From NCBI RefSeq assembly GCF_011058215.1, contig NZ_JAALFG010000001.1, forward strand, positions 749,001 to 813,000: 64,000 nucleotides of DNA. The letters are read 5' to 3'. Numbering within the stretch: position 1 is the stretch's first letter; every line of letters begins with the position of its first letter. Below the pieces are notes generated by a model. The model was given only the letters and a program-made list of their open reading frames with translations, made no database searches and was not told the DNA's origin. Positions 19,627-29,890 of the stretch are shown here, in pieces. The translations under genes and the position numbers were made by a program. Source of the DNA: Devosia aurantiaca (lineage in GTDB: Bacteria > Pseudomonadota > Alphaproteobacteria > Rhizobiales > Devosiaceae).

Positions 19627-20748
19627 TTATGACACCACCTTGGCGTCACGGGTAAGGGACGACAGCTTAGGCGCGGCAGGCGTTTCGATGCGAAGACCTG
19701 TGAGCTGGTCGTAGAGGTGCAACGCTGCCGTCGGCAAGTTGATCCACACGGTCGAGCCTTCGATGTCGTCCTCACCGGCTGGGAGAACAACGGCGACTTC
19801 GCAGTTGGCGAAGTTGCAGTAGGCGACGCGGGAACCGCCGAGTTCTTCCACCAGATCAACCGTGGCGGGGAGACCTGCGCCGCTCTTGGCGGAAAGGACG
19901 ACGTTTTCCGGGCGAATGCCGACTATCACCCTTTTGCCTTGAGGCAGGGCGGACTGGGCCACTGCAACATGCTTGCCGGAGAGATCAAGCATGACATCGC
20001 CATCTTGACCGACGGTTGCCGGGAGGAGGTTCATGGCCGGAGCGCCCATGAAACCGGCGACGAAAACCGAAGCAGGCTTGCGATAGACGTCCGAGGGCGG
20101 ACCGATCTGCTCGACGCGGCCGCCATTCATGACGATCAGCGTGTCGGCCAGGGTCATGGCCTCGACCTGGTCATGGGTGACGAAGATCGAGGTGGCGTTG
20201 AGGCGCTTGTGGAGGCGCTTGATCTCGATGCGCATCTGTACGCGGAGCAGGGCGTCAAGGTTGCTGAGCGGCTCGTCGAAGAGGAAGACGTCGGGCTCGC
20301 GGACGATGGCGCGGCCCATGGCGACGCGCTGGCGCTGGCCGCCTGAAAGCTGGGCCGGGCGGCGGTCGAGATAATCGGTGAGGTTGAGGATCTTTGCCGC
20401 CTCGAGCACGCGACGGTCCTGCTCGGCTTTGGGGAGCTTGGCGATGCGCAGCGGGTAGGCGATGTTCTGGCGGACCGTCATATGCGGGTAAAGGGCGTAG
20501 TTCTGGAACACCATGGCGCAGCCGCGATCGGCGGGCTCGATGTCGTTCATCACCGTGCCGCCGATGGCGATGGTGCCGGCGGAGATGTCTTCGAGGCCCG
20601 CGATCATGCGCAAGAGCGTGGACTTGCCGCAGCCGGAGGGTCCGACGATGACGACGAAGTGGCCGTCGGGAATGGTGGCGTCGATGCCATGCAGCACGGG
20701 CTTGCCGTCATAGGTCTTCTTGACGCCAGAGATTTGCAGATCGGTCAT
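19627..20748 (-). CDS. ugpC: UgpC/MsmK-type ABC transporter ATP-binding protein
   Basis: A 373-residue ATPase of the carbohydrate/glycerol-3-phosphate class. Walker A is GPSGCGKSTLL (about residues 36-46), followed by the Q-loop FQNYALYPHMTV, signature LSGGQRQRVAMGRAI, Walker B VFLFDEPLSNLDALLR and H-loop VTHDQVEAMTLAD, and then a C-terminal TOBE/MalK-like regulatory domain (about 235-355). It is the last gene of the operon with two permeases and the binding protein. ATG (20746-20748) overlaps the phosphatase stop by one base. It may also serve the second binding protein at 27001, which has no ATPase of its own. Confidence 0.9.
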   Translation of the reverse strand: MTDLQISGVKKTYDGKPVLHGIDATIPDGHFVVIVGPSGCGKSTLLRMIAGLEDISAGTIAIGGTVMNDIEPADRGCAMVFQNYALYPHMTVRQNIAYPLRIAKLPKAEQDRRVLEAAKILNLTDYLDRRPAQLSGGQRQRVAMGRAIVREPDVFLFDEPLSNLDALLRVQMRIEIKRLHKRLNATSIFVTHDQVEAMTLADTLIVMNGGRVEQIGPPSDVYRKPASVFVAGFMGAPAMNLLPATVGQDGDVMLDLSGKHVAVAQSALPQGKRVIVGIRPENVVLSAKSGAGLPATVDLVEELGGSRVAYCNFANCEVAVVLPAGEDDIEGSTVWINLPTAALHLYDQLTGLRIETPAAPKLSSLTRDAKVVS

Positions 20749-21485
20749 CAGAGGTCTCCCAGAAGGCGGTTGCGCAGGTGGTCTATGGTTTGGTCATCAA
20801 GGCCGATGGCGCCGAGGTATTCGTCGACCGAGCCGAACTCGGCTTCGATGAAGGCAAGGGTTGCGACCATGGTCTCGGGTTCCGAGGCGAGGAGGCGCTG
20901 AAAGGCGGCAGGGTCAGCGCCGCGCGAGACGGCTCCGGCGGTGATATCGGCAATGATGGGCGCGATCAGCGCGGCGGTCTGGGAGTAGTCCTCGACGATG
21001 AGGGCGGCTTCGACGCCCGCCACGCCGAGCAACAGCGCGGCGACGATGCCGGTGCGGTCCTTGCCGGCGGTGCAGTGGAACAGCACGGCACCAGGCGGGG
21101 CATCGGCGATGAGGCGCAGCACCTGTGCAAGGGCGGGCTGCCGCTGTGTCAAGGCAAGCTTATAAAGTTCGAGCAGCAGGTCGCCTTCGGTCATGAGGTC
21201 AGGCGCAAGCCCGTCCAGTAGCGAGACATTGTGGTAGGCGACGCCGGGATGGCCGGAAAACGGGTTTGGCTGGTGGGCCAATTCGTCGGCGTGACGCAGG
21301 TCGATCACGGTGGTGACCCCAGATTCCAGCATGCGGTCGACGCCCTGTTCATCGAGGCGATGGAGGGCATCGGCGCGCAGGATGCGACGCCACTGGGTTT
21401 GACCACCGGAAGCGGCATAGCCGCCAAGATCGCGAACATTGTAGGTGCCTTCGATCGGCAGGTGGCGTGTAGGTGCGGGCTGCAT
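20748..21485 (-). CDS. Tyrosine-phosphatase-like (PTP/Y_phosphatase3) enzyme, copy 1
   Basis: A 245-residue cytoplasmic phosphatase with the Cys-x5-Arg loop HCTAGKDRTGIVAALLLGVAGV (about residues 122-143) and the family's N-terminal RDLGGY motif (about 18-23) and VIDLRHADEL block. Y_phosphatase3 enzymes dephosphorylate phosphotyrosine, phosphoinositides or small phosphoesters. ATG at 21483-21485 overlaps the permease stop (TGATG) and the gene overlaps the ATPase start, so it is embedded in the transporter operon. With the phosphodiesterase at 24623 it suggests stepwise dephosphorylation of an imported organophosphate (inference). A paralogue lies at 26213. Confidence 0.88.
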   Translation of the reverse strand: MQPAPTRHLPIEGTYNVRDLGGYAASGGQTQWRRILRADALHRLDEQGVDRMLESGVTTVIDLRHADELAHQPNPFSGHPGVAYHNVSLLDGLAPDLMTEGDLLLELYKLALTQRQPALAQVLRLIADAPPGAVLFHCTAGKDRTGIVAALLLGVAGVEAALIVEDYSQTAALIAPIIADITAGAVSRGADPAAFQRLLASEPETMVATLAFIEAEFGSVDEYLGAIGLDDQTIDHLRNRLLGDL

Positions 21486-22360
21486 CAGCGAATTCCCGAT
21501 TTCATGAAGGATTGGACGACCTGGCGCTGCAGGACGACATAGATGACAAGGACCGGCAGGCTGGCCAGCGTGGAGGCGGCCATGAGCGGGCCCCACTGAT
21601 TGCCTTCGGCGGTCATGAACATCTGGATGCCGATCTGGATGACGCTGTTCTCGGCGGTGCGGCTCAGAAGCAGCGGCCAGAAATATTCGTTCCAGGTCGA
21701 GATGAAGATGAGGATGGCGAGCGACGCGATCGTGCCGCGCAGATTGGGCACCAGCACTTCCCAAAGGATGCGCCAGTTGTTGGCCCCATCCATGCGCGCC
21801 GCTTCGATGACTTCGCGCGGGAAGCCGCGCATGGCCTGCGCCAAGAGCATGATGGCGAGAGCCGCTGCGATGTTGGGCAGGATCAGGGCCAGGACGCTGT
21901 CGAGCAGGCCCATGTGGGCGACGAGGAGGTAGTTGGGTATCATCACCACCTGGAAGGGCACGAGCCAGGTGAGGGCGACGCCGGTATAAATCAGCCTGTC
22001 GCCGGGAAACTTCCAGCGCGCAAAGGCGAAGGCGGCCAGGATGCCGGTCAGGAGCTGCAGCACGGTCGAGACGGCAGAAAAGACCAACGTGTTGATCAGC
22101 ATGCGGGCGATCGGGATCGCATCGATGGCACGCGTGTAATTGTCGAGCGAGGGTTGCGTCGGCCAGAGCGACGTCTCGAACATGGTGTTGGCGGGCCGGA
22201 ACGAGCTCACCAGCATCCAGTAGACTGGGAAAAGGCAGAAGATCGACAGCAAGACCATCAGCAGGTGCCCTGCAGCCGAGTTGAGGCCCGACCGGTCGGA
22301 GATGCGTCGCAAAGCAACAGGCTTGCTGAAGACGGGCGTGGCGATAGCATCAGTTGTCAT
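21485..22360 (-). CDS. Carbohydrate-type ABC transporter permease (UgpE/MalG-like)
   Basis: A 291-residue inner-membrane protein with about six helices. The EAA loop is EAARMDGANNWRILWEVLVPNLRG (about residues 194-217). The N-terminus has a long cytoplasmic lead before the first helix (LLMVLLSIFCLFPVYWMLVSSF) with the family's RPANTMFE continuation. It pairs with the permease at 22350, whose 3' end it overlaps by 11 bases, showing translational coupling. It belongs to the operon binding protein - permease - permease - phosphatase - ATPase. Confidence 0.9.
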   Translation of the reverse strand: MTTDAIATPVFSKPVALRRISDRSGLNSAAGHLLMVLLSIFCLFPVYWMLVSSFRPANTMFETSLWPTQPSLDNYTRAIDAIPIARMLINTLVFSAVSTVLQLLTGILAAFAFARWKFPGDRLIYTGVALTWLVPFQVVMIPNYLLVAHMGLLDSVLALILPNIAAALAIMLLAQAMRGFPREVIEAARMDGANNWRILWEVLVPNLRGTIASLAILIFISTWNEYFWPLLLSRTAENSVIQIGIQMFMTAEGNQWGPLMAASTLASLPVLVIYVVLQRQVVQSFMKSGIR

Positions 22361-29178: not shown

Positions 29179-29221
29179 GGGCATGCTCCGTTGCTGGAGC
29201 CATGCCTATGCCGCTCGCGTC

Positions 29222-29890
29222 TCAGCCGCGTGACGAGTTTGGAACAGCGTTTGAATTGCCGGGCGGCGTCGTAAACATCGGCGCCGCGGCCGCGATCACC
29301 TGGGCTAGCACGACATCCGCATTGCCGAGGTCAAGCTGATGGTTGGTCAGCTGCTCGGTGCGGCTCCTGTTGCGAGTCATCTGCGAGCGGATGCCCAGGA
29401 GGCAGGACATGCGAAAGCCGATCTCCACATCGCTCAGCCATGGCGCAATGCGGGCAAAGTGAGGGATGAAGACGCGATGATGATCGATATCCTCGATCAT
29501 CGAGCGGAAGATTTCAGGGTTGTCGCTGGCTTGCGCAATGGTGGTGATGTGGCGAAGGACCGCATAATCCGATTGCGGATCAAGGCTCCAGCGGATCGAA
29601 GGTCCGACAAGGGCGGTAATCAGGTGCTCGACCCTCGCCGGTCCAGGGTGGCTGCGTTGCACCGCAGTGTGGAGAAGGGCGAGGCGTTCGGCGTTGAGGC
29701 GGAGGTAGACCCGTTCCGCTACCGAGTAGATCAGCTGTTCAACGCTGCCGAAGTGATAGCTGATGGCGCCGACATTGGTGCCGGCAAGCTGCGCAATGCT
29801 GCGCACCGTGACGGCTTCCGGACGCGCAGATGCTCGCAGCAGCTCTTCGCAGGCAATTTTCAGTCTTTCGGCGGTGTTGGTCTTATTCAT
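29222..29890 (-). CDS. TetR-family regulator
   Basis: A 222-residue TetR protein. The DNA-binding part (about residues 8-55: LKIACEELLRASARPEAVTVRSIAQLAGTNVGAISYHFGSVEQLIYSVAERVYL) has the atypical, slightly degenerate HTH seen in CerR/YbiH-like members. The C-terminal domain is helical with no recognised ligand motif and ends in a Pro/Asn/Ser-rich tail. It lies immediately upstream of the second phosphodiesterase module on the same strand and may control it. Confidence 0.8.
   Translation of the reverse strand: MNKTNTAERLKIACEELLRASARPEAVTVRSIAQLAGTNVGAISYHFGSVEQLIYSVAERVYLRLNAERLALLHTAVQRSHPGPARVEHLITALVGPSIRWSLDPQSDYAVLRHITTIAQASDNPEIFRSMIEDIDHHRVFIPHFARIAPWLSDVEIGFRMSCLLGIRSQMTRNRSRTEQLTNHQLDLGNADVVLAQVIAAAAPMFTTPPGNSNAVPNSSRG

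Follow-up and report, generated by a model that had tools for sequence, protein, structure and literature searches.

Among described systems, the agrocinopine acc system of Agrobacterium, which comprises AccA, AccBCDE, the putative phosphodiesterase AccF, the putative phosphatase AccG and AccR (PMC4526662), is the closest in logic to the locus reported here. In the xanthosan system, AvrBs2-XanT-XanP, a sugar phosphodiester is imported as a nutrient and cut intracellularly (PMC12807533), and the Ugp system (ugpBAECQ) is a third point of comparison. Our locus lies on the minus strand, from position 29890 to 19627, of a 64,000-nucleotide stretch of the Devosia aurantiaca genome (NCBI RefSeq assembly GCF_011058215.1, contig NZ_JAALFG010000001.1, positions 749,001 to 813,000), and this whole stretch is referred to as the window. 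Two related gene sets, operon A and cassette B, are found there, and we consider it likely that they form a phosphate-scavenging system for an organic phosphodiester. The proposal draws on gene content, conserved linkage, promoter motifs and the joint inheritance of a solute-binding protein (SBP), a phosphodiesterase (PDE) and a phosphatase with a protein tyrosine phosphatase fold (PTP), all of which are observed in these loci.

With acc, operon A would have in common an ATP-binding cassette (ABC) importer, a cytoplasmic PDE, a phosphatase and a repressor, all serving an imported phosphodiester. The proteins differ, with a CUT1/UgpB-like SBP and permeases, a calcineurin-type PDE, an ALP-type phosphatase and TetR regulators in our locus; AccA, AccF and AccG are, we presume, of other protein families than their counterparts in operon A. 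The TonB-dependent transporter and 2H-phosphoesterase of the xanthosan system (PMC12807533) likewise represent families other than those of operon A. With Ugp, the locus shares a CUT1 importer, a UgpC-type ATPase, most of the phosphate ligands of the SBP, a Pho-box-like promoter and a cytoplasmic PDE partner. It departs from Ugp in that the SBPs and permeases score far under the UgpB, UgpA and UgpE cut-offs, the glycerol ligands are apparently lost, the PDE is not of the glycerophosphodiester phosphodiesterase (GDPD) type, and a phosphatase and TetR regulators are added. The two SBPs reach 60.0 and 60.6 bits with the UgpB model NF008211 (cut-off 411). As for membership of Ugp, the ATPase passes the UgpC model, which describes a broad subfamily, and the SBP, the permeases, the ligand set and the GDPD partner all fail.

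The genome has its own ugp set at about G000:C2:679243-684235, where UgpB (529.5-530.6 bits, cut-off 411), UgpA (383.3, cut-off 335), UgpE (368.7, cut-off 297) and UgpC (519.7, cut-off 432) are accompanied by the only GDPD match of the genome. Operon A is therefore unlikely to be the main glycerophosphodiester route. Its PDE can also be compared with the class III PDEs Rv0805, GpdQ and SpdA (about 28% and 17% identity), from which it is set apart by its place beside a CUT1 importer, and both PDEs of the window miss the SpdA equivalog model (80.4 and 86.8 bits, cut-off 400). The phosphatases have the P-loop CxAGKDRTG in common with the ALPs MptpB, LipA and Pho16B, and differ from them in an occasional Asn in place of the preceding His, in the lack of a visible secretion signal in PTP1 and in their setting within an import operon. 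Known ALPs act on phosphoinositides (PMC3091653), and one of them is a phytase (PMC6409689). As the UgpB, UgpA, UgpE and SpdA cut-offs are missed, operon A is, judged by these family models, a member of neither Ugp nor SpdA, and it would work in the manner of the acc and xanthosan systems. No description of this gene set was found in the literature searched, subscription journals and preprints being outside its reach; the metallophosphoesterase in the relevant part of PMC5082522 is PlcP.

Gene content and conserved linkage

Operon A runs PDE1-SBP1-PermA-PermE-PTP1-ATPase with a divergent TetR gene, TetRmid, and cassette B runs TetR2-PDE2-SBP2-PTP2 (Table 1). Intergenic gaps inside each set are at most 54 nt, with overlaps at PermA/PermE, PermE/PTP1 and PTP1/ATPase, and pairwise identity between the sets is 55% for the PDEs, 56% for the SBPs and 51% for the PTPs, the last over the readable part only. 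The PDE and PTP are nearest to Devosia proteins, and the host genome is 3.69 Mb in size. A preliminary description of this DNA had listed binding-protein, PDE and PTP genes twice, with a Ugp-like permease pair and an ATPase in the first set only. All of these genes are present and the transporter genes are indeed confined to operon A; the doubling is incomplete, cassette B being without a permease and PTP2 having a broken frame. The two TetR genes were absent from that list. In PTP2 the frame is lost at a run of C shortly past the P-loop, and residual similarity continues in another frame to about 26213, which may reflect a sequencing error or a real lesion. B-type phosphatases in relatives are open and full length, and the other PTP matches of the family survey described below are full length or nearly so and have no internal stop.

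The PDE residues D14, H16, D57, N89, H163, H203 and H205, which correspond to the metal ligands of Rv0805 and GpdQ, show at most one exception in 88 sequences. A Metallophos domain (PF00149) with this complete set predicts class III PDE activity. Both phosphatases carry HCTAGKDRTG, which conforms to the ALP motif HCxxGKDR[TA]G, and match PF13350 (203.5 bits for PTP1 and 128.8 for PTP2), pointing to ALP-type enzymes. The P-loop CxAGKDRTG occurs in all 67 PTPs, preceded by His in 62 and by Asn in five. Catalytic residues are retained in both enzymes. The earlier suggestion that neither enzyme has a signal peptide agrees with their sequences, both starting directly in the domain, and the SBPs have N-termini that resemble signal peptides.

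A GTDB scan with the PDE found 177 relatives, and the locus counts given here rest on 77 of these, with gene presence called by score thresholds. SBP, PermA and PermE lie beside the PDE in 64 of the 77 loci, accompanied by the PTP in 60 and also by the ATPase in 35. The window's family, which we take to be Devosiaceae, was surveyed in 101 genomes: 17 have the PDE (E<=1e-60) and 18 the PTP (E<=1e-25). The 17 with a PDE all belong to the 18 with a PTP, and in each of them the two genes share a contig and are no more than about 6 kb apart. Such co-occurrence is hardly due to chance (Fisher p = 2e-18, with relatedness ignored), and presence is patchy inside genera. The search of homologous neighbourhoods proposed in the preliminary description hence came out in its favour, with both enzymes kept beside the transporter in 60 of 77 loci and the PTP linked to the PDE in every one of the 17 family genomes that have the latter. 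The eighteenth PTP is a weak match (G203; locus L100, 7111-13681) in a cluster with a TetR gene, a different calcineurin-type PDE, an SBP, two permeases and an ATPase; this cluster is a distant or second version of the same functional set.

At the level of the order, at least four of 249 genomes have the PDE, at least ten the PTP and at least two both, at most 9-10 candidates per genome having been scored. Class-wide, the PDE (E<=1e-30) occurs in one of 190 genomes, the window's own, and the system is therefore rare overall. The same gene order appears in plasmid records of Rhizobium gallicum, Agrobacterium tumefaciens (pAt) and Sulfitobacter pontiacus, so that the full set occurs on pAt despite the Agrobacterium-type loci that have the PDE only. 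The Sulfitobacter pontiacus copy has transposase genes on either side.

A further operon gene was sought by clustering the open reading frames (ORFs) of the 77 loci, and no widely recurring additional family was found. The clusters consist of known roles, ORFs lying over operon genes, families common to the ten Agrobacterium-type loci and small clusters. The three largest unlabelled clusters are ORFs over operon genes (383 of 385, 68 of 68 and 11 of 11 members), and once such ORFs are set aside every other family is confined to at most 8 of the 67 loci outside the Agrobacterium-type group.

Table 1. Features of operon A, cassette B and their control region, in window positions
Feature	Position	Strand	Description
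TetR2	29222..29890	-	TetR-family regulator at the head of cassette B; PF00440 and PF17939; TetR2-like gene in 38/77 loci
PDE2	28324..29184	-	Calcineurin-like phosphodiesterase; PF00149; 55% identity with PDE1
SBP2	27001..28299	-	UgpB-like (CUT1) solute-binding protein with signal-peptide-like N-terminus; PF13416/PF01547; NF008211 60.6 bits vs cut-off 411
PTP2	26434..26946	-	ALP-type phosphatase, N-terminal part including P-loop; frame broken near 26460
TetRmid	25647..26216	+	Regulator divergent from operon A; PF00440; TetRmid-like gene in 30/77 loci
Palindrome TGAATGAACCTTCATTCA, 18 bp	25625..25642		Predicted TetRmid operator
Pho-box-like direct repeat CCTTCATTCACCTGTCAT	25617..25634	-	12/14 positions; overlaps palindrome
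-10-like TAGCTT	25601..25606	-	10 nt downstream of Pho-box-like repeat
PDE1	24623..25507	-	Calcineurin-like phosphodiesterase (Rv0805/GpdQ fold)
SBP1	23322..24611	-	UgpB-like (CUT1) solute-binding protein; model confidence (predicted local distance difference test, pLDDT) 91.5; UgpB among nearest folds of the model
PermA	22350..23270	-	CUT1 permease (UgpA-like); PF00528; UgpA model 117.5 bits vs cut-off 335
PermE	21485..22360	-	CUT1 permease (UgpE-like); PF00528; UgpE model 133.4 bits vs cut-off 297
PTP1	20748..21485	-	ALP-type phosphatase, P-loop HCTAGKDRTG; PF13350 203.5 bits
ATPase	19627..20748	-	UgpC/MalK-type ABC ATPase; NF008653 514.5 bits vs cut-off 432

Two lineages and the permease

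Two types of locus, A and B, are distinguished by their PDE; most type-A loci have a divergent TetRmid, and in most type-B loci TetR2 comes first. The other proteins follow this division: 73 of 74 SBPs, 66 of 67 PTPs and 61 of 64 copies of each permease have a nearest tree neighbour of their own type; the corresponding PDE row (88/88) is nearly circular, since the PDE defines the type, and was not used. Nine PTPs of B cassettes, eight from Devosia or Chelatococcus loci and one from locus L054, lie at a mean distance of 1.71 from 29 type-B PTPs, as against 2.09 from the 29 others. A simple duplication of one module was ruled out as the origin of the two sets: the PTPs and SBPs of type B cluster with those of type-B operons that stand alone in other genera, and cassette B thus belongs to a second lineage that forms its own operon elsewhere. 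Type-A operons in four loci (L029, L039, L094 and L099) contain two SBP1 genes, arranged in L039 as two PDE1-SBP1 pairs.

The B triplet of SBP, PDE and PTP has no permease of its own in the window or in the other loci where A and B are adjacent, and in genome G251, where some 245 kb separate it from operon A, no such permease was found in the surrounding 5 kb or so. Conversely, in loci L049 and L054 the sole SBP and PDE are B-type and the permeases are close to those of Devosia type A (distances 0.09-0.24), L049 carrying PTP1 in addition. Genome G274 has, over its whole length, the B-type PDE and no A-type one. The three cassette-B genes for SBP, PDE and PTP move as a group, and in two species they are found with a type-A permease. 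Given the permease-less triplets and the A-type permeases that accompany B-type SBPs in L049 and L054, SBP2 most likely works with a type-A permease. Joint movement of SBP, PDE and PTP around a permease that stays would be the pattern expected of cargo-specific enzymes. It can be speculated, with somewhat less than even confidence on our part, that SBP-PDE-phosphatase cassettes are exchangeable specificity units on one shared CUT1 permease, controlled jointly by PhoB and TetR proteins. Each cassette would then serve a different non-glycerol phosphodiester of the environment, for instance one of plant, fungal or algal origin built on a sugar or inositol.

Control region and surroundings

Between TetRmid and PDE1 a palindrome is found in 27 of 28 type-A loci, in 25 of them as the full 18 bp and in two as a 16-bp core. 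It is a single site in its own genome at up to two mismatches and did not occur in 100 shuffles of the window. Upstream regions of TetR2 were searched in the same respect and no shared palindrome was found.

The consensus of the Pho box is CTGTCAT-N4-CTGTCAT (PMC3131613, PMC3465305). In type A, 26 of 28 loci match at 10 or more of its 14 positions, as compared with 43 of 1400 block shuffles, and a TA follows exactly 10 nt downstream in all 26 promoters that reach this score. A TA placed 10 nt downstream of the Pho box corresponds to the spacing of PhoB promoters. Two CTGTCAT-like repeats 4 nt apart, as in the Pho regulon, precede operon A, and PhoB control is predicted for it. Of the 35 dereplicated upstream regions of type B, 17 reach 10/14 or more; permuted motifs gave a mean of 2.8 and a maximum of 14 such regions, and none of 300 reached 17. 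Control counts were one of 35 on the reverse strand and one of 64 inside SBP genes. A TA at exactly 10 nt is present in 11 of 37 type-B regions and is the commonest spacing there. A scan of 3.04 Mb returned 37 sites with at least 11 matches and a TA at 10 nt, of which 28 are at operon promoters (25 by rule and three, in L041, L046 and L053, by eye directly before operon genes) and nine elsewhere. The ugpB gene of the host genome has a Pho-box-like site of 10/14.

Two observations concern the neighbourhood of the locus. A tRNA-Ser(GGA) gene (16069-16158 of the window) stands near a minus-strand gene of the phage-integrase type (PF00589, 16361-16993), and the pair may mark the border of an island, about 3 kb from where the operon ends. 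Directly upstream of cassette B, on the opposite strand, lies a gene for a CYTH-domain protein of the triphosphate-hydrolase type (PF01928, 29986-30456).

Ligand, alternatives and meaning

In UgpB, phosphate is held by two Tyr and two Ser and the glycerol hydroxyls by Glu, Arg and Gly; these Tyr and Ser residues are conserved in a glycerophosphocholine binder and a U3G binder but not in glucose binders (PMC12718374). We placed the ligands through residue spacing in this genome's own UgpB, where Tyr64-Glu88-Ser143 fit exactly, Ser266, Gly303 and Tyr342 have one common shift and the Trp pair another, the Arg being placed by motif only. By this alignment the SBPs would keep three of the four phosphate ligands (Ser150, Thr273/Ser274 and Tyr347) together with Gly309. 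On the glycerol side, the Glu appears to be replaced by an invariant Phe97 and the segment with the Arg to be deleted; no Arg was found at 382-391 in 73 of 74 SBPs. One Trp of the pair that clamps the ligand in UgpB is retained in SBP1 (Trp206), with Phe in its place in SBP2. In five printed alignments, the sugar binders 7bvt and 8art have neither the Ser nor the Tyr, both of which are present in UgpB (two entries) and a dinucleotide binder of Thermus. From an alignment at 22-25% identity, we read the SBP pocket as one that still has a site for phosphate but whose alcohol side has been remodelled. The two SBP groups (33 SBP1 and 41 SBP2 sequences, window copies included) have fixed or nearly fixed residues of their own, namely Asp205-Trp206 vs Thr-Phe, Trp384 vs Asn and Arg224 vs Gly.

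The following course of events can be proposed. Under phosphate limitation PhoB would act through the Pho-box-like promoter, and TetRmid would be relieved by an intermediate. SBP1, SBP2 or both would capture a phosphate-bearing ligand in the periplasm, as their pocket residues suggest, and PermA/PermE with the ATPase would import it, SBP2 presumably also using the permease of operon A, because cassette B has none. In the cytoplasm PDE1 or PDE2 would split the diester into a phosphomonoester and an alcohol, from which monoester PTP1 would then free the phosphate, as expected of these enzyme families; PTP2 looks broken here. Import of a phosphodiester followed by two cytoplasmic hydrolytic steps had been put forward in the preliminary description, and we regard that model as partly supported, in that it fits in outline with the linkage, the Pho-box-like promoters and the phosphate-side residues. 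To it are added Pho-type control, a predicted TetR operator, the proposed exchange of SBP-PDE-PTP cassettes on a shared permease, and doubts about a plain glycerophosphodiester as the ligand.

The ligand is probably something other than a simple glycerophosphodiester. That compound class, one of the examples offered earlier, has become less likely because the genome possesses a separate ugpBAEC and GDPD set and because the SBPs, by alignment, lose the glycerol ligands of UgpB. For the same reasons we find it quite improbable that the locus is a second importer redundant with ugp, taking up and cleaving glycerophosphocholine or the like. The exchange of the glycerol-side Glu for Phe97 and the loss of the segment holding the Arg, itself located by motif, would speak against such a function, as does the presence elsewhere in the genome of ugpB, ugpA, ugpE and ugpC above their curated cut-offs along with the only GDPD match. 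Glycerol 3-phosphate as a product would, moreover, need no dedicated PTP. Unlikely, if less so, is nucleotide salvage. The SBPs would then bring in short pieces of RNA or 2',3'-cyclic nucleotides, whose internucleotide or cyclic diester bond would be hydrolysed by the PDE, leaving a 2'- or 3'-phosphate for the PTP-fold enzyme to remove. The ALP substrates named in the relevant parts of PMC3091653 and PMC6409689 are phosphotyrosine, phosphoinositide and phytate, nucleotides not being among them; and since the loci share no additional widespread family, a recurring gene for a nucleosidase or for base catabolism is lacking too.

It may also be asked whether the two enzymes act on the cargo at all. 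CUT1 transporters carry mostly sugars, and some public records call the enzymes cyclic-AMP phosphodiesterase and protein-tyrosine phosphatase, both of which would suit a sugar importer whose two associated enzymes have a regulatory role, adjusting the transporter or the cell. This we hold to be very improbable: SBP and PTP follow the PDE in its division into types A and B, the B triplet moves without a permease as cargo-specific enzymes would, the promoters are Pho-box-like and no further family recurs widely in the loci. Scavenging of phosphate from a phosphodiester stays our preferred reading. As a tentative leading guess for the ligand we would name a phosphodiester of a cyclitol or a sugar, for instance glycerophosphoinositol or an opine-like compound.

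Several observations weigh against phosphodiester scavenging, beginning with loci in which the set is incomplete. The transporter is lacking in 13 of the 77 loci. In ten of these, of Agrobacterium type (L026, L028 and L030-L037, around 10001; seven named Agrobacterium and three Rhizobium nepotum or rhizogenes), the PDE stands alone without SBP, permease or PTP. The other three are L060, where the contig ends within the SBP, L047, which has many broken frames, and L083. Four loci with a transporter have no PTP above the threshold (L017, L040, L078 and L081, the last with a weaker match); genome G523 has TetR, ATPase, PDE, SBP and permeases and no PTP, and G312 has a PDE with no SBP in the following 1.9 kb up to the contig end. 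At the order level, eight of the ten PTP-bearing genomes are without a PDE match, these PTPs scoring far lower (120-142 bits), and three inspected neighbourhoods of such genomes gave no match to the PDE or SBP model. As to the promoters, conservation of the type-A Pho-like repeat is not independent evidence, because its first half lies inside the palindrome; among the 35 dereplicated type-B regions, 18 stay under 10 matches, and the TetR2 region of the window itself attains no more than 9/14. In the binding proteins, one phosphate Tyr of UgpB appears to be deleted, and among the matches to the modelled fold of SBP1 phosphodiester binders and maltoside binders are tied or close.

Three of the neighbourhoods read by eye held other arrangements. 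In L032, the one Agrobacterium-type locus that was read, the PDE is divergent from a gene resembling a Na/Pi cotransporter. In L083 (Mesorhizobium xinjiangense, 10001-16789) the PDE heads an apparent Opp/Dpp-type importer with an SBP, two permeases and two ATPases. In genome G462 (L105, 6793-8798) an ALP-type PTP is divergent from a ribose-type ABC importer.

Organic phosphodiesters make up a large and poorly resolved share of soil and marine phosphorus. The carriers of the operon include rhizobia, Devosia and relatives of Sulfitobacter, some of them from diatom cultures, and some records are on plasmids; public annotation gives its genes as metallophosphoesterase, sugar transporter and tyrosine phosphatase. 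The two SBP lineages offer a ready comparison for what sets specificity. Knowing the ligand would name a phosphorus source of these bacteria and correct many annotations, and exchangeable cassettes, if the proposal is true, would constitute a further route of phosphodiester nutrition besides ugp, the opine type and xanthosan.

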